Position numbers and translations under genes: made by a program. 23,644 nucleotides of DNA from the IMG/VR virus record IMGVR_UViG_3300020233_000060, positions 1 to 23,644 of that record. The stretch is one strand, 5' to 3'. The notes below the pieces were generated by a model. The model was not told the origin of the DNA, did no database searches, and saw only the letters and a list, made by a program, of their open reading frames with translations. The DNA is from a virus. This document shows positions 99 through 23,643 of the stretch, piece after piece (the stretch's first letter is position 1; every line of letters begins with the position of its first letter).

Positions 99-278
99 CT
101 ACGCCGCTACGCCTATCCTTACCGCCTCTTCGCGGTAGGTGTCCACATCCGCTGGTGTCGGGCGCGATGCAAAATACTCGCTCTGTCCGCCGTTTGCGTC
201 CGAGATCCACCAGCCGTTACCATCGTCCGTTTCGTCTGTAATCCAGATTCCGGAATACTTCGTTTCGATTATCCTCAT
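99..278 (-). CDS. Small acidic unknown protein (59 aa)
   Basis: I do not recognise a family. The product is a 59-residue acidic protein beginning MRIIETKYSG, rich in W, G and D, with two adjacent Trp (GWWISDANGG) and a C-terminal half that looks helical. An upstream in-frame ATG would add 17 residues. The inner ATG is preferred because GGAGG lies seven bases before it, while the outer one has no ribosome site. It is the first gene after the leftward promoter candidate at 397-424, so it is probably an early or regulatory small protein. That role is inference from position only. Confidence 0.6.
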   Translation of the reverse strand: MRIIETKYSGIWITDETDDGNGWWISDANGGQSEYFASRPTPADVDTYREEAVRIGVAA

Positions 279-505: not shown

Positions 506-533
506 TTGACAAGATTTGCAGAATCGTTATAAT
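506..533 (+). promoter_or_regulatory. Rightward consensus sigma70 promoter
   Basis: The -35 TTGACA (506-511) and -10 TATAAT (528-533) both match the consensus exactly and are separated by 16 nt. The expected start point is about 538-541, at the beginning of the pyrimidine tract. No gene starts within 300 bp downstream except terS, so it probably drives the terminase/virion operon or a leader RNA. Confidence 0.7.
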
Positions 534-540
534 CAAGATG

Positions 541-588
541 TTTTTCTTTTTTCTTTTTTTTCCCCTTTTTTTTCTTTATTTCTTTTTT
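541..588 (+). repeat. Homopyrimidine mirror repeat
   Basis: This is a 48-nt tract of T and C with a single A at 578. Around the central CCCC (562-565) the run lengths are mirrored: T8-C-T6-C-T5 going left and T8-C-TTTATTT-C-T6 going right, a mirror repeat with one 1-nt difference. Homopyrimidine mirror repeats are known to form intramolecular triplex (H-DNA) under supercoiling. The tract begins at about +1 of the consensus promoter at 506-533. Confidence 0.75.
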
Positions 589-848
589 AATCATGTACCG
601 GATATGAGCTGTTCCTAAAGAGTAGGCAACAACCAGTCAAACTGCTACGGCTGACGATACACGCGCCCGCCGCCCCTTCTACTCGATACCTATTCCAGTT
701 AACGCTACATAACATAGAACTATTCCAACGGTTGTACGCAGGCCAGAGCGGGATAGTGTGTATTAGTGTACATATGACTGAAATAGAACTATTCTAATTG
801 TCTTCATTACTTGACAAATGTGGGGGGAATGTGGGATATAGCTATAAT
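589..848 (+). promoter_or_regulatory. Gene-free leader before terS with repeated CTATTCC elements
   Basis: No credible gene is seen here. CTATTCC occurs at 690-696 and 720-726, and CTATTCT at 789-795. The last two lie within the 12-nt repeat ATAGAACTATTC (714-725 and 783-794), whose core ATAG-AA-CTAT is a short dyad. The stretch could hold regulator-binding sites or a packaging (pac) site next to terS; neither can be decided from sequence alone. Confidence 0.35.
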
Positions 849-1367
849 ATGTCTGCTATTACTCACCAATTGAAACCTGCTGAAATATCGTTTATCCATT
901 TGTATACTACCAATGGTTGCAACGTAGCTGATGCGGCCAGACGCGCGGGTATGTCGTTACATGTTGCGCGCCGGTTTGTTGCTACCGAGCAGTGCCAGCG
1001 CGGTTTACGTCAGGTTAGCGTTGATGTTGTTGAGCGTTGCGAGATTACGATGGACGAAGTAGTTGATAACGCGCGTGAGCTGGTGCGGATGGGTAGATTT
1101 GGGCGTGAGGGTAAGGCCGGTGAGATTGTGCGTGATAGTGGCGCATTGGCGAAGGGCAACGAACAGCTGATTAATCTGGCAGGGTTTTATGCGCGTAAGC
1201 AGATTGATGTTGACGTTCGCGAAGCCCCGTCTGTCTCGATTGAGCTGGCGAAGCGGATGGCCGAACTGATTCTGGCGGACGACGCGGCTGCGATCGAGCT
1301 TGTTTCGACGGAGGGGGGTGGGGGGTACATCGAGAGGGAACCTGCGGATATAGAGGTTACCCCATAA
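849..1367 (+). CDS. terS: Small terminase subunit (putative)
   Basis: This is probably the DNA-recognition subunit of the packaging motor. It is 172 residues with an N-terminal helix-turn-helix-like segment (about residues 20-45, NGCNVADAARRAGMS followed by a recognition-helix-like stretch), then helical oligomerisation-type sequence, a common layout of small terminases. The assignment also rests on position: terL starts two bases after its stop. I prefer ATG 849 over an in-frame TTG at 798, which lacks a ribosome site. The site for ATG 849 is itself weak (GTGGGA about 12 nt upstream). Sequence divergence among small terminases keeps confidence moderate. Confidence 0.65.
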   Translation: MSAITHQLKPAEISFIHLYTTNGCNVADAARRAGMSLHVARRFVATEQCQRGLRQVSVDVVERCEITMDEVVDNARELVRMGRFGREGKAGEIVRDSGALAKGNEQLINLAGFYARKQIDVDVREAPSVSIELAKRMAELILADDAAAIELVSTEGGGGYIEREPADIEVTP

Positions 1368-1369
1368 TC

Positions 1370-2830
1370 ATGACTCAAACAAAAATATCTGGGAACTCAA
1401 AAAAAATATCCACGGAACAAAAAATAAATTCTTTTGTTTTCAGCAGTGCTCGTAATAGCTTGAGTGCTTATTCGATATTGATTGACAGCAGTTACATCCT
1501 TGCTCCTCACATAGCTAGGCTTATAAACGCTTTAGAGCGTGTTGAGCGTGGTGAGTTGCGTAGGTTGATGGTTTTCATGCCTCCTCGTCATGGTAAGACG
1601 AAGCAGGCTAGTGAGATATTTCCATCTTGGTATTTGGGTAGGAATCCCGATAAGCAGGTAATTTCTTGTACTTACTCACAGGGTTTGGCTGACGATTACG
1701 GTCGTAGTGTTAGGGACAACATGCGTGATGACTATTACGGTCTTGTGTTTCCTGAATGTCGTTTGCGCAGTGATGGCGCATCTATTCGTCGGTTACAGAC
1801 TGAAAATGGCGGCGTTTATTATGGCGTAGGCGTTGGCGGCAGTGTAACTGGGCGTGGCGCTCATTTGTTATTGATTGATGATGCTGTTAAGGGTCGCAAG
1901 GAAGCTGACAGTGAGACTTTACGTCGTCGGTTAAAGAATTGGTATCAGAGTGTTGCTCGGACGCGTTTAATGCCGAATGCGTCGATTGTGATAATACAAA
2001 CACGTTGGCACGAGGACGATTTGGCTGGTTATTTGTTACGTGAGCATCTGCATGAGAACTGGGAAATTATAGAGATGCCTGCTTTGGACGCTAATGGTCG
2101 TGCTTTGTGGCCTGAATCGTTTGATGAGAAGGTACTTGAATCTACTCGCAAGTCTATAAGCGAGCGCGAGTGGAATGCTTTGTATATGCAACGTCCAAGC
2201 GGCGACGACGGCGATTATTTCAAGCGTCCGTGGTTTAATCGTTATGACGAGTTACCTTCTGACTTGCATTTTTATGGTGCGAGTGATTACGCGGTTACTG
2301 ACAGCGCTGGCGATTTCACTGAACACGGCATATTTGGGGTTGATTCGCATGAGAATATCTACGTTGTTGATTGGTGGAGCGGGCAAACTTCTCCTGATGT
2401 GTGGATAGAGTCGCAGATAGATTTGATATTGAAGCATAAACCTTTGCGTTGGCTTGGTGAGTCTGGCCCTATTCGTCGTTCGATTGAGCCTTTTTTACGC
2501 AAGCGTATGCTTGAGCGTAGCGGCTATTGCCATTTGGAATGGGTTGCAAGTATCGGTGATAAGCCAACGCGTAGTAGAGCGTTTCAGGCGCGTGCTTCTA
2601 TGGGCAAGGTCTTTCTCCCAAACACTGTATGGGGTGATGATCTTATTTCGCAGTTATTGCGGTTTCCGGCTGGCTTAAATGACGACAAGGTAGATGTTTG
2701 CAGTTTATTTGGTATGGCTATTGATAAGACCATCGGTAAGATTTCCCCTGCTCGACATAATGAGGCGAAAATTGGCGACTATGACGGTATGTTTGAAAAA
2801 CATGAGGTGGAAACATGGCGGACAGCGTAA
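1370..2830 (+). CDS. terL: Terminase large subunit (packaging ATPase-nuclease)
   Basis: This is the ATP-driven motor and nuclease that cuts concatemeric DNA and pumps it into the prohead at the portal vertex. The ATPase domain shows Walker A PPRHGKT (residues 71-77), Walker B HLLLIDD (165-171) and a motif-III-like IIQTRWHEDD (208-217). The C-terminal RNase H-like nuclease shows ASDYAVTDS (Asp306), LGES (Glu364) and LNDDKVD (Asp438-442), the expected acidic triad region. Its 486 residues are a normal length. It starts two bases after terS and overlaps the portal gene by 16 bp. Its codons look T-rich at third positions (GTT, CGT, TTT) compared with the A-rich downstream genes. Confidence 0.95.
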   Translation: MTQTKISGNSKKISTEQKINSFVFSSARNSLSAYSILIDSSYILAPHIARLINALERVERGELRRLMVFMPPRHGKTKQASEIFPSWYLGRNPDKQVISCTYSQGLADDYGRSVRDNMRDDYYGLVFPECRLRSDGASIRRLQTENGGVYYGVGVGGSVTGRGAHLLLIDDAVKGRKEADSETLRRRLKNWYQSVARTRLMPNASIVIIQTRWHEDDLAGYLLREHLHENWEIIEMPALDANGRALWPESFDEKVLESTRKSISEREWNALYMQRPSGDDGDYFKRPWFNRYDELPSDLHFYGASDYAVTDSAGDFTEHGIFGVDSHENIYVVDWWSGQTSPDVWIESQIDLILKHKPLRWLGESGPIRRSIEPFLRKRMLERSGYCHLEWVASIGDKPTRSRAFQARASMGKVFLPNTVWGDDLISQLLRFPAGLNDDKVDVCSLFGMAIDKTIGKISPARHNEAKIGDYDGMFEKHEVETWRTA

Positions 2831-4695
2831 GCCCTGTAGTCGAAGATTTGCTGTCGACGTTATGCCAGTGGTTCATCGCAGATGAGGATGCGTCGTACAC
2901 TCCTCGCACAAAAAGCGAACAATGTCGCGATTATGTTGATTCCGACCAATGGACGGCTGAAGAAACTGCACTTCTCAATAAGCGCAAACAACCGATTGTA
3001 ACGTCGAATCGCATTAAACCGAAAGTGGATTCACTTCTTGGCGCAGAGCGTCAACGCCGTACATTGCCGAAGGCTGTTCCTCGTAACGTTCCGTTTGACG
3101 AGTTGGCTGGTGCGGCGGCTACTGATTCGATTCGGTACGTGCTGGATAACAATAATTTCGATATGTTACGCTCGGATGTATTTGAAAATATGCTTGTTGA
3201 GGGATATGGCGGCTGTACGGTCGAGGCGGTGGAAAAAACTGATAAGCGCACAGATAAAACCGAGTTCATTATCATATTACAGCATATTTTGTGGGATAGA
3301 ATTGTTTACGATTCGCATAGTAGGAAACGTGATTTCAGCGATGCCAGACGTATGGGGCAGGTTATATGGATGGACTATGACGAAGCGCAGTCCCAGTTCC
3401 CTGATATACATGAATTTGATACGATAATTTCTGCTTCCGGCGGAACCTCAACCTCCTATGATAGCTCCGACGGCGATACTTATGGAGACAAGCCGTGGTT
3501 GAGATGGATAGACCCTGACCGTAAACGCGTAAGAATTGTAGAAACATGGTGGAAAGAAGGCCATGGCGAAAATCAGGTAGTTAAATTTGCGAAGTTCACG
3601 CGCGCCGGAATCATCGAAACTGGCGAATCACAATATGAAGATGATGAAGGCAATCCGGTATGGCCGTATGAGATGGCTTCTACTTTTGTGTCGCGTGATG
3701 GCTCAAGGTACGGTCATGTATTGCAGTTATTGAGTCCGCAAGATGAAATAAATAAGAGACGCTCCAAAGCGCTTCACTTGATAAACATGCGCCAGATTAA
3801 GTATGAGGCCGGTGCGGTAGACGATATTAGCGTAGCGCGTAAAGAAATTGCCAAGCCAGACGGCATGATACAGGTTAATCCGGGCTCTGTATTCGAGATA
3901 CTCCCAACATCAGATATGGTTGTAGGCCAGTTGAAACTTCTGGAAGAGGCAAAGCGTGAAATAGACGCTATTGGCGCTAATGCCGCATTTTCAGGTAAGG
4001 AAAATCGGGTAATGAGCGGTACAGCGTTGAAAAATCGGGAAAATTCTGGGTCGCGGGAGGTTGAGCCGATATTTGACCCGCTACGAATGTGGCAACTGAA
4101 TGTATACAGAAAAATATGGTGTTGCATCAAGATGTTTTGGAAGTCTCCAAAATGGTTAAGGATTACCGACGACACGCGCAATATCAAATTTGTTGGTATA
4201 AACACGGACGAAAAGATGCAAATGGCCGCGCAAGAGATGGAAGGTGGCGGCGAATCGCCTGTTTCCGGCATGGTTGGCAATCTTGGAGAACTTGATGTTG
4301 ACATAACGCTGGATGAAGCTCCGGACAGCGAATCCAAACGCGCTGAACAGTTTCAGATGTTGATGCAGATGCGCCAAGCACAGTTCCAGATACCGGATAA
4401 GGCAATTATTGAAGTATCTGATTTGAGAGATAAAGACAAATTATTGGAAAGTATGAAGCCCGCTCCGGAAGAGTTACAGGCTGAACAGGAAATGACGGCT
4501 ATACATATGGATCAGGAAATGAAAAAAAGGGAGATAGAAAATGAAAAATTACTTGCCGAAGTGAGAAAAACAGTAGCGACTGCCATGAAATTGGAGATGG
4601 AAACCGCAATGCACAGTATTACACCGCCGCCGGGTTTCGGGCGTAAAAGTGAAGAGGACGACGCTCAATCGGTCGAATCGCGCGAACCAGCGTAA
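2815..4695 (+). CDS. Portal protein, P22 gp1-like
   Basis: This forms the dodecameric ring at the unique head vertex through which DNA enters and leaves, and on which the tail is built. It is 626 residues, in the range of the P22-type portal (about 725), and longer than most siphovirus portals. The N-terminus reads like that family (KRKQPIVTSNRIKPKVDSLL, then GAERQRR, then a DNNNFD helix region). The C-terminus (about 545-600) is a charged helical stretch rich in E, K and M, compatible with a barrel or crown helix. The start follows GAGGTGG and overlaps terL by 16 bp. The order terL-portal-scaffold-coat supports the call. Confidence 0.88.
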   Translation: MADSVSPVVEDLLSTLCQWFIADEDASYTPRTKSEQCRDYVDSDQWTAEETALLNKRKQPIVTSNRIKPKVDSLLGAERQRRTLPKAVPRNVPFDELAGAAATDSIRYVLDNNNFDMLRSDVFENMLVEGYGGCTVEAVEKTDKRTDKTEFIIILQHILWDRIVYDSHSRKRDFSDARRMGQVIWMDYDEAQSQFPDIHEFDTIISASGGTSTSYDSSDGDTYGDKPWLRWIDPDRKRVRIVETWWKEGHGENQVVKFAKFTRAGIIETGESQYEDDEGNPVWPYEMASTFVSRDGSRYGHVLQLLSPQDEINKRRSKALHLINMRQIKYEAGAVDDISVARKEIAKPDGMIQVNPGSVFEILPTSDMVVGQLKLLEEAKREIDAIGANAAFSGKENRVMSGTALKNRENSGSREVEPIFDPLRMWQLNVYRKIWCCIKMFWKSPKWLRITDDTRNIKFVGINTDEKMQMAAQEMEGGGESPVSGMVGNLGELDVDITLDEAPDSESKRAEQFQMLMQMRQAQFQIPDKAIIEVSDLRDKDKLLESMKPAPEELQAEQEMTAIHMDQEMKKREIENEKLLAEVRKTVATAMKLEMETAMHSITPPPGFGRKSEEDDAQSVESREPA

Positions 4696-5475: not shown

Positions 5476-6555
5476 ATGGCCAATACATTGACTGCAGAAG
5501 GCCTAGCCCAAAAAAATTGGCGTGTAAAGTTCTGGAACGATTACCAAAACAAGTTTCGGTTCAAACCGTTTCTTGGGAAGAGTTCAAATAGTATGATTCA
5601 GGTTGTTGAAGACCTGCAAAACAAGCAGGGGAAATCAATAACCCTTCCACTGGTGAACGAACTTATGGGAGATGGTATTACCGGAGATAATACCTTGAGG
5701 GGCAACGAAACTCCTCTGAATTCCCGCTCGTTCGAGATGGTGGTGGATCAGTTACGCAATGCCGTAACAGTGCCAAAGATGGAAGGTATCGATAGCGCTA
5801 TTCCGCTATATGATGCCGCGCGTGGTGAACTTCAAAACTGGATGCTCACTAAGACCAGACTGGAGATAATCGCCGCCATGCACCGCATAGACGGTGTTGA
5901 CTACGCTGATGCAAGTGAAGTGCAAAAGGACGCATGGCTTACGAATAACGCAGACCGTGTACTTTTTGGCGCCGCGAAAAGCAATAACGCGGCCAATGAC
6001 CATTCAGTGGCTTTGGCTAATGTTGATGCAACGGCCGACAAATTGACCGCGAAAACCATATCTCTGGCAAAGCGTATGGCGAAAACCTGTACTCCGCTCA
6101 TACGGCCTACGAAAAGCCCGAAGATAGACGAAGATTGGTTTGTGTTGTGGGTGCCGCCTTTGGCGTTCCGCGACATTCAGGCCGATTTACGCGCTTCCAA
6201 CCGTGATGGCTGGCTTCGTGGCGCGAATAACCCGATTTTCAGGGGAGGCGATTTGATTTCCGAAGGCGTGATAATCAAAGAACTTGAGGAGATTCCAATT
6301 CTGTCCGGTGTTGGCGCGGCTGGCATCGACGTTGCCCCGTGCTTCATGATGGGTGGGCAGGCGCTTGCTATCGCATGGAGAGAGCGCACGAGGGTCTACA
6401 CTGAAAAGGTTGATTATACCAACCTCAAGGGCGTAGCTATCGGAGAGATAAGGAAAATCGACAAGGTTCGCTTCGGTACCGGTGCGGCTGATACCACAAC
6501 CCCGAAAGACCATGGTGTTCTTACCATGTATGTTTCCGGAGTTGCCGACGCTTAA
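5476..6555 (+). CDS. Major capsid protein, N4-gp56-like
   Basis: This is the main shell protein of the head. Its 359 residues match the usual length of the N4-gp56 coat family. Family-like features seen are the N-terminal aromatic segment (QKNWRVKFWNDYQNKF), then GKSITLPLVNELMGDG followed by ITGDNTLRGNE, a region RNAVTVPKMEG, and WVPPLAFRDIQADLRASNRDG in the second half. It has a strong AAGGAG ribosome site and is followed at once by a G6/C6 hairpin. The HK97 fold is known for the family rather than seen here. A P22-like tail with this coat type would be a modular combination. Confidence 0.85.
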   Translation: MANTLTAEGLAQKNWRVKFWNDYQNKFRFKPFLGKSSNSMIQVVEDLQNKQGKSITLPLVNELMGDGITGDNTLRGNETPLNSRSFEMVVDQLRNAVTVPKMEGIDSAIPLYDAARGELQNWMLTKTRLEIIAAMHRIDGVDYADASEVQKDAWLTNNADRVLFGAAKSNNAANDHSVALANVDATADKLTAKTISLAKRMAKTCTPLIRPTKSPKIDEDWFVLWVPPLAFRDIQADLRASNRDGWLRGANNPIFRGGDLISEGVIIKELEEIPILSGVGAAGIDVAPCFMMGGQALAIAWRERTRVYTEKVDYTNLKGVAIGEIRKIDKVRFGTGAADTTTPKDHGVLTMYVSGVADA

Positions 6556-19913: not shown

Positions 19914-20049
19914 AAACGTTTCATGTCTGCGTAAAGGCTCCTCACATAATTGCACGTGCGCAGACGATAAGCGCGATATTAACCGCAACCGGCGCCGGGT
20001 AGAGAAAGCGCTTATACAAGAACAGATGGTGGATGTAGTTCAGGGATAG
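19867..20049 (+). CDS. Cys/Arg mini-protein B (60 aa), 3' end inside tRNA-His
   Basis: This is a paralogue of mini-protein A: MGREIVPPRG start, Cys20, Cys29 and Cys31, and the conserved NRRRVEKALIQEQ helix. GAGGAG lies seven bases before ATG, within gene A. Its last seven codons (M-V-D-V-V-Q-G and TAG) are read from the 5' half of the tRNA-His gene at 20028-20103, so tRNA processing would cut its mRNA. The ancestral C-terminus may have been replaced when the tRNA joined. Unknown function. Confidence 0.6.
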   Translation: MGREIVPPRGKITNLKNVSCLRKGSSHNCTCADDKRDINRNRRRVEKALIQEQMVDVVQG

Positions 20050-20103
20050 AACGCCAGATTGTGGCTCTGGTAGTCGTAGGTTTGAATCCTACCATTCACC
20101 CCA
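20028..20103 (+). tRNA. tRNA-His (anticodon GTG), CCA encoded
   Basis: It folds fully by eye. G-1 (20028) pairs with C73 (20100), the identity element of tRNA-His. The acceptor stem GTGGATG/CATTCAC has one G-U pair. The D stem is GTTC/GAAC, the anticodon stem CCAGA/TCTGG with loop TTGTGGC (anticodon 20061-20063), and the T stem GTAGG/CCTAC with loop TTTGAAT, ending CCA. All stems are intact, so it looks functional. It is the last element of the late operon and overlaps the end of mini-protein B by 22 bp. Confidence 0.95.
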
Positions 20104-22016: not shown

Positions 22017-22856
22017 CTAAAATAGTAGCGCATCCTCATAATTCCAAGACTTGGTTACTTTCCCGTCTGGCCAAAATACAACAGAGCATATACCACCATA
22101 TCTACGTTCAAGTACTCTTTGTGATGATAAATCTTGACGCTTAAAACAGACTAAATGGTTTTGATATATATATTTCACCCAAAGATCGTAAGCATCTATT
22201 TTGTAGCTCATATATTTCCAGTTGTGCGCATAAGATGCCTCTTCTTCCAAAGTGAAAACATCTAATTTATCTATACTATCCCCGACTAATTGTCTGAAAC
22301 AAACACTGTCGTACCCTTCCTTAATCGCCTTTTTAATAAAATGTTGTATTGATTTGAATCCTTTATTAAAAATAGTTTTCCTACAGACCGTCTGTAACCG
22401 GACTGGAACACTTGCGTTGTATTTTTGCGCTGGGTACATTTTATCTATAAACGATATGTTAATATAATCCAATCTGGGATGTTTGAAAATTAAACTATCA
22501 TTATCGCCATTACTGTTTATTCCGACCTTGTTACCTTCCGGCATTTCGTTTTTCAAGTAAACGCTCTTGGGCATTAAGTCCCCACAAGTATCTAGCAGAT
22601 TTAGGGCTAAATCTTCATTCAATGTAGGCTCACCTCCGGTTAAAATTACATTTGCAGAAATACCAAGATGTTTTAATTCAAGTAATAGCGTTTTTAAGTT
22701 TTCCATATAACGCTTAGTATTGTTTGAGTAATTTTTAGACATGGCACCTTTCTCAATACACCATGCACACTTTCTATTACACAATTTTGTTGTAAGTAGT
22801 TGTATCTGTAGGGGGGTTTTATATATTTTATGATTAAATAACATTGGGTTGCTCAT
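22017..22856 (-). CDS. Radical SAM enzyme
   Basis: This uses a [4Fe-4S] cluster and S-adenosylmethionine to make a 5'-deoxyadenosyl radical. The cluster motif CNRKCAWC gives C-x3-C-x2-C (Cys26, 30, 33) after a first beta strand IQLLTTKL. GGEPT (74-78) is the SAM-contacting motif, and NSNG (114-117) continues the barrel. Three more Cys (187, 237, 257) could belong to a C-terminal accessory region, which reads GGICSVVFWPDGKV. It has 279 residues from ATG 22856; an upstream ATG at 22886 lies in the neighbouring gene and lacks a ribosome site. AGAGGG is only three bases before the chosen ATG. The substrate is unknown. It lacks the unusual QueE-type spacing of cluster cysteines. Confidence 0.88.
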   Translation of the reverse strand: MSNPMLFNHKIYKTPLQIQLLTTKLCNRKCAWCIEKGAMSKNYSNNTKRYMENLKTLLLELKHLGISANVILTGGEPTLNEDLALNLLDTCGDLMPKSVYLKNEMPEGNKVGINSNGDNDSLIFKHPRLDYINISFIDKMYPAQKYNASVPVRLQTVCRKTIFNKGFKSIQHFIKKAIKEGYDSVCFRQLVGDSIDKLDVFTLEEEASYAHNWKYMSYKIDAYDLWVKYIYQNHLVCFKRQDLSSQRVLERRYGGICSVVFWPDGKVTKSWNYEDALLF

Positions 22857-22863
22857 TTTCCCT

Positions 22864-23643
22864 CTATTTCTCAAAAGCATCCACAAGTCTCTTAAATCGC
22901 TCGCAAGCCGCAGGGTTCGCTTTTGTAAGCTCCTTGCGGGATTCTATTTTGCAGAAATTATAAATCACTTGTATCGCCCGCGCTTTTGTCGGGAGTAAGC
23001 CGGGGTGAAGATATGAAAGAGCATATTCCCAAAATTCCTTATCGTTTGAAAGCGAGTTCGCTTGTTGGCGCGCTGAAGAGTACTCCGAGCCATACTCTCC
23101 GGATGGGCAGTCCTCGTCGTACTGAATTTCTATATCATCCTTATAGACCTCTTGTGGCGGAACTCTTTTCCCATCCTTGATAAAACAAACCCCAGTCATA
23201 ACCATATCATTGAGCAATAGTCCCCTTTCGTCTGGTTCCATTGCCTCGCCTGAACAAGTTAGTTTAATCTCCATATCATCAGGATATGGCAGACCGCATT
23301 TATGCCCATCGAACCATGGCAGGCCACATTCATCACATTCATCTCCAGTCCATGGTATGCTGTATTCGAATCCATCTGGTGTTACACCGTCGGCTGATGG
23401 TGGCTCCTCAAACTCTTCTTTGGATTCTCCCCACTTCTCGCAGTACTCATCAATCATGTCATCAAGATTAACCAATTCTACTGGGACGCAGTCTTTTGCT
23501 TGGTCGTGAACCTTGTCTGAAACAAATAATGCTTTTGCAATAACCGCGTCGGCTTCCTTATTTTGGCGAAATAGCGGCTCCAAGCGATCCTCTTTTTCTT
23601 TGAGTAAAAATTCCAACCGCTTAATTTCATCCGCAAACTTCAC
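22864..23643 (-). CDS. Acidic unknown protein, at or across the right edge
   Basis: At least 259 residues. The first visible codon is GTG (23643-23641), which may be the start or an internal Val because only one base lies beyond it. The N-terminal 45 residues are a charged helix, likely coiled coil. The middle is very acidic, with a Cys cluster CDECGLPWFDGHKC (about 117-130) that could bind zinc. The C-terminal 90 residues are helical (KEFWEYALSYLHPGLLPTKA). Not recognised. Its stop is seven bases before the radical SAM start, so the two are in one transcript. Confidence 0.6.
   Translation of the reverse strand: MKFADEIKRLEFLLKEKEDRLEPLFRQNKEADAVIAKALFVSDKVHDQAKDCVPVELVNLDDMIDEYCEKWGESKEEFEEPPSADGVTPDGFEYSIPWTGDECDECGLPWFDGHKCGLPYPDDMEIKLTCSGEAMEPDERGLLLNDMVMTGVCFIKDGKRVPPQEVYKDDIEIQYDEDCPSGEYGSEYSSARQQANSLSNDKEFWEYALSYLHPGLLPTKARAIQVIYNFCKIESRKELTKANPAACERFKRLVDAFEK

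Follow-up and report, generated by a model that had tools for sequence, protein, structure and literature searches.

Viral DNA of 23,644 nt from IMG/VR record IMGVR_UViG_3300020233_000060 (this whole stretch is called the window here) carries a perfect sigma70 promoter and, a few bases past its -10 box, a long homopyrimidine near-mirror tract at 541-588, a design that recurs about ten times in mostly unrelated phage sequences. The mirror symmetry of the tracts is significant over this class of elements, not from the window tract alone. Our tentative preference, judging from the sequences, is for a promoter-proximal control element that is capable of forming a triplex and ties the output of the sigma70 promoter to supercoiling. 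With the same reserve, we would assign it to a sporadic class found in unrelated phages, having its pyrimidines on the RNA-like strand within the initially transcribed region of a strong promoter. Such an element would most likely act as DNA.

The promoter and the homopyrimidine tract

506-533, plus strand: sigma70 promoter, with TTGACA at 506-511, a 16-nt spacer and TATAAT at 528-533 (12/12 match)
534-540, plus strand: discriminator and predicted start region, CAAGATG, placed by distance to the -10 box
541-588, plus strand: homopyrimidine near-mirror tract, T5CT6CT8C4T8CT3AT3CT6, on the RNA-like strand
550-577, no strand assigned: exact mirror core TTTCTTTTTTTTCCCCTTTTTTTTCTTT, 28 nt, centre 563.5

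The promoter is the sole perfect sigma70 promoter in the window, with 0.017 expected per Markov-simulated window, which bears out an earlier note on this DNA that had placed a consensus TTGACA-16-TATAAT promoter ahead of the tract. Transcription was said there to begin on the first bases of the tract, and this is right to within 1-3 nt: the predicted +1 is G540 (after a 6-nt discriminator), with A538 as the alternative purine. The tract itself begins 7 nt past the -10 box, and its extent and run lengths (T5-C-T6-C-T8-CCCC-T8-C-T3-A-T3-C-T6) are as had been described. Positions 541-577 are pure pyrimidine (37 nt) and A578 is the single purine in the tract, compared with a maximum pyrimidine run of 23 nt in 300 simulated windows. 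Promoter and pyrimidine run are far beyond chance. The region also has the features of an H-DNA motif, a homopurine-homopyrimidine tract with mirror arms of about 10 nt or longer (550-577). The mirrored run lengths claimed for the tract are exact over the 28 nt of the core, and over the whole of 541-588 the mirror holds for 20 of 23 pairs. A 14-nt exact arm like that of the core is, however, reached by about 7% of shuffles (6.7-7.6% of composition or run shuffles), and the symmetry becomes significant only jointly with related elements.

Recurrence of the design in other viral contigs

A set of similar loci emerges when 2.9 million viral contigs are scanned for patterns that pair a consensus promoter with T-rich pyrimidine DNA just after it. 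The first scan gave three, two of which resemble the window element: TATAAT-ATACTTATG-T6CT8CCCT7CT6 in the contig designated L083, and TATAAT-AACAACAT-CT4CT5CTCCT5CT4CT in L084. A second scan, requiring only TATAAT and a C-centred tract, gave nine viral matches; five of these (L083, L084, L085, L087 and L091) have TTGACA at 17 nt without its being required. The same type of scan on 84,980 cellular genomes yields 20 matches, TTGACA being present in none of them (0/20). New members L126 and L128 came from the 38 matches of a third scan. A fourth scan was free of any promoter requirement, and among the 80 listed matches that were read from it an 11/12 promoter stands directly upstream in L171, L176 and L188 only, always in sense orientation (3 sense, 0 antisense), the remaining loci listed having arbitrary centres. 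These ten members share tracts of 26-37 nt whose arms match in length around a central C run, placed shortly after a promoter matching 11-12 of 12 consensus positions; all have near-consensus promoters because most of the scans required them. A position control, with the tract 34-39 nt after the -10 box, gave three matches including L085 and L087, and it is unusable as a negative control because these two proved to be members themselves, only with the tract displaced. The exact core CTTTTTTTTCCCCTTTTTTTTC is absent from the viral contigs scanned, and BLAST of the tract region against phages gave no match. A search of the open-access literature, which leaves out most subscription journals, turned up nothing that describes an element of this kind. 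Since the design is found about ten times in mostly unrelated phage sequences, it is probably a genuine control element, and one that could fold into a triplex.

The arms of these tracts match in length. The run lengths on the two sides of the centre are 5-6-8|8-7-6 in the window, 6-8|7-6 in L083, 4-5|5-4 in L084, 4-1-5|6-1-3 in L085, 3-5-7|8-5-3 in L087, 6-8|8-5 in L091, 3-7|8-3 in L126 and 4-6|7-3 in L128, with a correlation of r = 0.94 between left and right outer arms. Run lengths were tested because whole-letter symmetry measures had too little power. Permuting runs inside the tracts, with five tracts not picked for symmetry as the base set, gives a joint p of 2e-4 for the left/right match, 3.5e-5 when L126 and L128 are added and 5e-6 when the window is added as well; these values are approximate because edge runs were trimmed by hand in L084 (an outer single T on each side and a T within the centre) and L091 (a leading TT). 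Untrimmed maximal runs give single-locus p values of 0.03 for L084 and 0.46 for L091. Among promoter-linked tracts of the third scan, all seven that are at least 26 nt long with a CC/CCC core are near-symmetric and the shorter ones are not, by a length and core rule derived from the same data. A triplex constraint would leave just such a pattern, in which the symmetry is shared and the sequences differ.

A separate line of evidence comes from L171, L176 and L188. The first two are close relatives (98% over 700 nt), and L188 is remote from both, alignable chiefly around the promoter, the tract and the gene for a small basic protein. L171 and L176 carry the same 29-nt tract without a difference, L188 carries it with a single change (C to G, in the centre), and it stands beside diverged bases between the -10 box and the tract (TTCCCTACG, TTGTCTTCC and ATCCATG). 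The promoter-free scan required most of this tract, and its identity is to that extent given, but the divergence next to it is not. A tract kept beside a diverged spacer speaks for a role of the nucleic acid itself and makes a leader peptide less likely.

A proposed supercoiling-responsive promoter and its alternatives

In the mechanism we favour, the mirror symmetry would allow one half of the pyrimidine strand, under negative supercoiling of the promoter region, to bend back and become the third strand in a triplex, built of T.A-T triads with a few C+.G-C triads and hinged at the central C run. The all-pyrimidine start region would make promoter escape slow and dependent on supercoiling, and the output of the promoter would thereby follow the topological state of the phage DNA; here the target under control would be the downstream putative terS-terL operon. 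Triplex DNA folds from mirror repeats (PMC13125764), and at T5 N25 pyrimidine-rich initial transcribed sequences slow escape, a slowing that supercoiling relieves (PMC12464699). That escape effect, together with mirror symmetry as the signature of a triplex, makes a supercoiling-responsive promoter the best reading, which we hold tentatively. It is more doubtful that these loci form a previously undescribed class of phage element in which a mirror pyrimidine tract takes on a triplex structure, of DNA or of RNA and DNA, where transcription starts. Equally doubtful is the corollary for such a class, in which matching run-length changes would hold the symmetry and a strong promoter would be coupled to supercoiling or to replication state. 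If the reading is true, a small cassette of promoter and tract, about 100 bp long and recurring in unrelated phages with its symmetry kept while the exact sequence changes, would make it directly testable whether H-DNA has a natural role in phages or bacteria, a question that to our knowledge has not been settled.

Known systems resemble the element in part. Like H-DNA motifs of the H-y type, compared here by sequence, it is a pyrimidine tract with mirror arms of at least 12 nt around a 4-nt centre, T-rich enough that little dependence on low pH is expected; those motifs are described mostly in eukaryotic DNA and plasmid inserts, whereas this tract sits at a phage promoter start and has a C run at its centre. 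TMECO (PMC4666352) is likewise a natural intergenic triplex-capable sequence in prokaryotes, but its triplex is of the purine motif, G/C-rich, with three stems on a single strand, in contrast to the T-rich two-arm mirror beside a promoter seen here, and it shows no association with phages and no promoter activity (PMC4666352). T4 oriF/oriG (PMC3016281) also place a promoter before A+T-rich DNA at a transcription divergence, using a MotA-dependent middle promoter and having no mirror symmetry. T5 N25anti (PMC12464699) combines a consensus-like phage promoter with a pyrimidine-rich start and is escape-limited and helped by supercoiling; it is an artificial 18-nt replacement, whereas the window tract is natural, longer and symmetric.

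Several observations weigh against a supercoiling-responsive triplex. The mirror symmetry of the window tract is not significant by itself, its 3' arm is interrupted by A578, and a hinge rich in G/C is a less than ideal place for H-DNA to nucleate. In L085, L087, L091 and L126 the tract begins about 12-24 nt past the start site and so is not in the escape region. The patterns by which members were found favour strong promoters, the second and the promoter-free scans partly favour symmetric cores, and L171, L176 and L188 carry no weight for symmetry. TerL relatives (at most 53% identity) have no comparable long pyrimidine tract upstream of terL, and none was found in the stretches examined of ten related isolates, HTVC103P, SIO1, P12053L, CRP-4, ICP2, MEP401, HMO-2011, HTVC023P, CRP-13 and CRP-902. 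The same is true of the stretches examined of the uncultured genome ctOsX528. The check named in the earlier note, mirror symmetry conserved in related phages, is thus passed not by the TerL relatives but, unexpectedly, by about ten mostly unrelated contigs that share the promoter-tract design.

The strongest rival, by analogy of layout with T4 oriF, is a replication origin of the oriF/oriG type, in which the promoter would make a primer RNA and the A+T-rich tract would be a downstream unwinding element at a transcription divergence. We consider it unlikely. The window does show a promoter (506-533) directly followed by an A+T-rich tract (541-588), in a divergent region where the GC skew switches sign, and in L084 the element lies between the DNA polymerase and primase-helicase genes. 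Gene direction confounds the skew, however, mirror symmetry is needless for an unwinding element, and L091, with its strong terminator about 130 nt after the tract, more resembles a small RNA. It also counts against an origin of this kind that U-rich RNA paired with a purine template is expected to be too weak a hybrid for the R-loop to be stable.

An element acting as RNA is unlikely as well. Its 5' U/C tract would bind a protein (S1, Hfq, Rho or a phage protein) or clamp purine-rich RNA in a triple helix; it would set stability or translation, and would head a small RNA in some members. The sense orientation of the pyrimidines at all three promoter-linked loci among the matches listed from the promoter-free scan fits this, as do the L091 terminator, a terminator-like hairpin 30 nt past the L188 tract, and the 12-nt AAAAAGAAAAAA that L171 and L176 carry 219 nt downstream, fitting both arms. 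Protein binding, however, leaves the mirror symmetry unexplained, and a purine partner in cis is clear only in L171 and L176 and weak in L188; of the ten members looked at, eight have none or one no better than chance. Nor is there an Rfam family: the window leader and L091 gave nothing credible at E up to 5, and at the gathering score only tRNAs were found in the window, L083, L084, L085, L087 and L091. An RNA clamp is possible in L171 and L176, not as a general rule.

It is improbable that the tract is neutral low-complexity DNA, or an assembly artefact, that chances to follow a promoter. Slippage does make low-complexity runs grow, the symmetry of the window tract alone lies within that of shuffles and TerL relatives lack the tract; the layout with matched arm lengths nevertheless recurs in contigs of different datasets, a tract is conserved beside a diverged spacer, and the promoter-linked matches are viral, not cellular.

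Reiterative initiation at the T run, sensitive to UTP in the style of pyrBI or carAB, is quite improbable. Those operons also have a T run within the first transcribed bases, and in the window, L083, L171 and L188 the first few bases to be transcribed include five or six T; T5 at 541-545 is compatible with a start at G540, itself a predicted position, when at least three T are looked for at about +2 to +5. The runs of pyrBI and carAB are short, however, and a short run is all that slippage needs, which leaves tracts of 26-48 nt with matched, mirrored arms unexplained (48 nt in the window), as well as the members L085, L087, L091 and L126, in which the zone of initiation ends before the tract; nor is the element linked to pyrimidine genes. 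A Phe-rich leader peptide, read from a leaderless transcript through the 26-codon frame MFFFFLFFPLFFLYFFFNHVPDMSCS opened by ATG538, is very improbable: the window, L083 and L188 do have an ATG directly before the tract, but there is no Shine-Dalgarno site, a pyrimidine tract leaves any frame open, L171 (ACG) and L176 (TCC) keep the tract and lack the start codon (ATG in L188), and no attenuator or intrinsic terminator was found on the plus strand of the window leader (541-849).

Gene contexts and other observations

99-278, minus strand: small divergent ORF with Shine-Dalgarno sequence ACGGAGG, its start 228 nt upstream of the -35 box
589-848, plus strand: non-coding leader, from the tract to the first plus-strand ORF
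849-1367, plus strand: first downstream ORF, putative terS, named by its position directly before TerL
1370-2830, plus strand: terminase large subunit (TerL), phrog_38, E 1.4e-100
2815-4695, plus strand: portal, in the late gene block
5476-6555, plus strand: major head protein, in the late gene block

The 23.6-kb window has its late gene block on the plus strand and minus-strand genes at both ends. Promoter and tract lie in a divergent non-coding region of 570 nt, from the minus-strand ORF 99-278 to the first plus-strand ORF 849-1367. The latter has no PHROG or Pfam family match and no homologues in viral contigs, and terS is a positional label because the ORF lacks a recognisable homologue. 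The major head protein has no match in cellular genomes.

The suggestion that the tract is a landmark for packaging is not supported. A small-terminase gene adjoins the tract only in the window, where the putative terS is without family match, and in L083, where the gene starts 44 nt upstream on the other strand. L087 and L091 have TerL genes of phrog_38, the family of the window, with the tract about 2 kb from terL and the element divergent from an adjoining tail fibre gene; the TerL of L091 shares 62% identity with its counterpart in Cobavirinae, for example in Celeribacter phage P12053L. Elsewhere the tract is away from terminase genes, among the replication genes of L084, beside a polynucleotide kinase gene (RNA repair) in L085, and between divergent operons, one including a head protease, in L126. 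What the members have in common is the cassette of promoter and tract, placed mostly in divergent intergenic DNA, and no particular neighbour gene, which speaks against a packaging landmark. After the tract, L087 (1850-2080, minus strand) and L091 (1-224, minus strand) share a similar G+C-rich stretch, CCATCC...AGG.TAA..CTTCCGGCA, and some 130-190 nt on they have an end that resembles a terminator; this may be a small RNA outside any Rfam family.

Other promoters with shared leaders occur in viral sequences. Five TerL relatives (L035, L036, L037, L039 and L040) share a TTGACT-17-TATAAT promoter about 530-560 nt before terL, followed by TTCATATAATTTTTTCAGTT (one base shorter in one copy) without a long pyrimidine tract. 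A consensus promoter, an AAAGGGG-like purine block and a T run of about 18-24 nt are found in L117, L121, L123, L131, L136, L141, L142, L143 and L144, a leader that is a candidate for slippage or for a separate element. L120, L125, L129, L134, L137 and L140 have a consensus promoter and then GGGCAG-TCTTTTTTCCTTTCTCTT-CTGCCC, a conserved hairpin whose loop is pyrimidine-rich. The roseophages P12053L (L269; 38681 and, on the minus strand, 30175) and SIO1 (L273; 37512 and, on the minus strand, 8612) have two consensus promoters each, all preceding the same leader TATAATAGTCTTAACAAGTCTCCCCTGC, a conserved initially transcribed sequence.

Within the window leader, two operator-like copies of ATAGAACTATTCYAA (14/15 nt alike) stand at 714-728 and 783-797, spaced 69 nt. 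Each contains the imperfect dyad TAGAA-CTA-TTCTA, the exact 11-mer TAGAACTATTC occurs in the window only within these copies, and another TTGACA (811-816) starts 13 nt after the second. An identical 13-nt Shine-Dalgarno block, TTAACGGAGGTAT, at 66-78 and 283-295 is common to two minus-strand genes at the left end. The right-hand part carries a QueE-like radical SAM gene (22017-22886), for which a common origin with the radical SAM gene of L083 is not supported, and a phage-borne tRNA-His (GTG) at 20029-20103.
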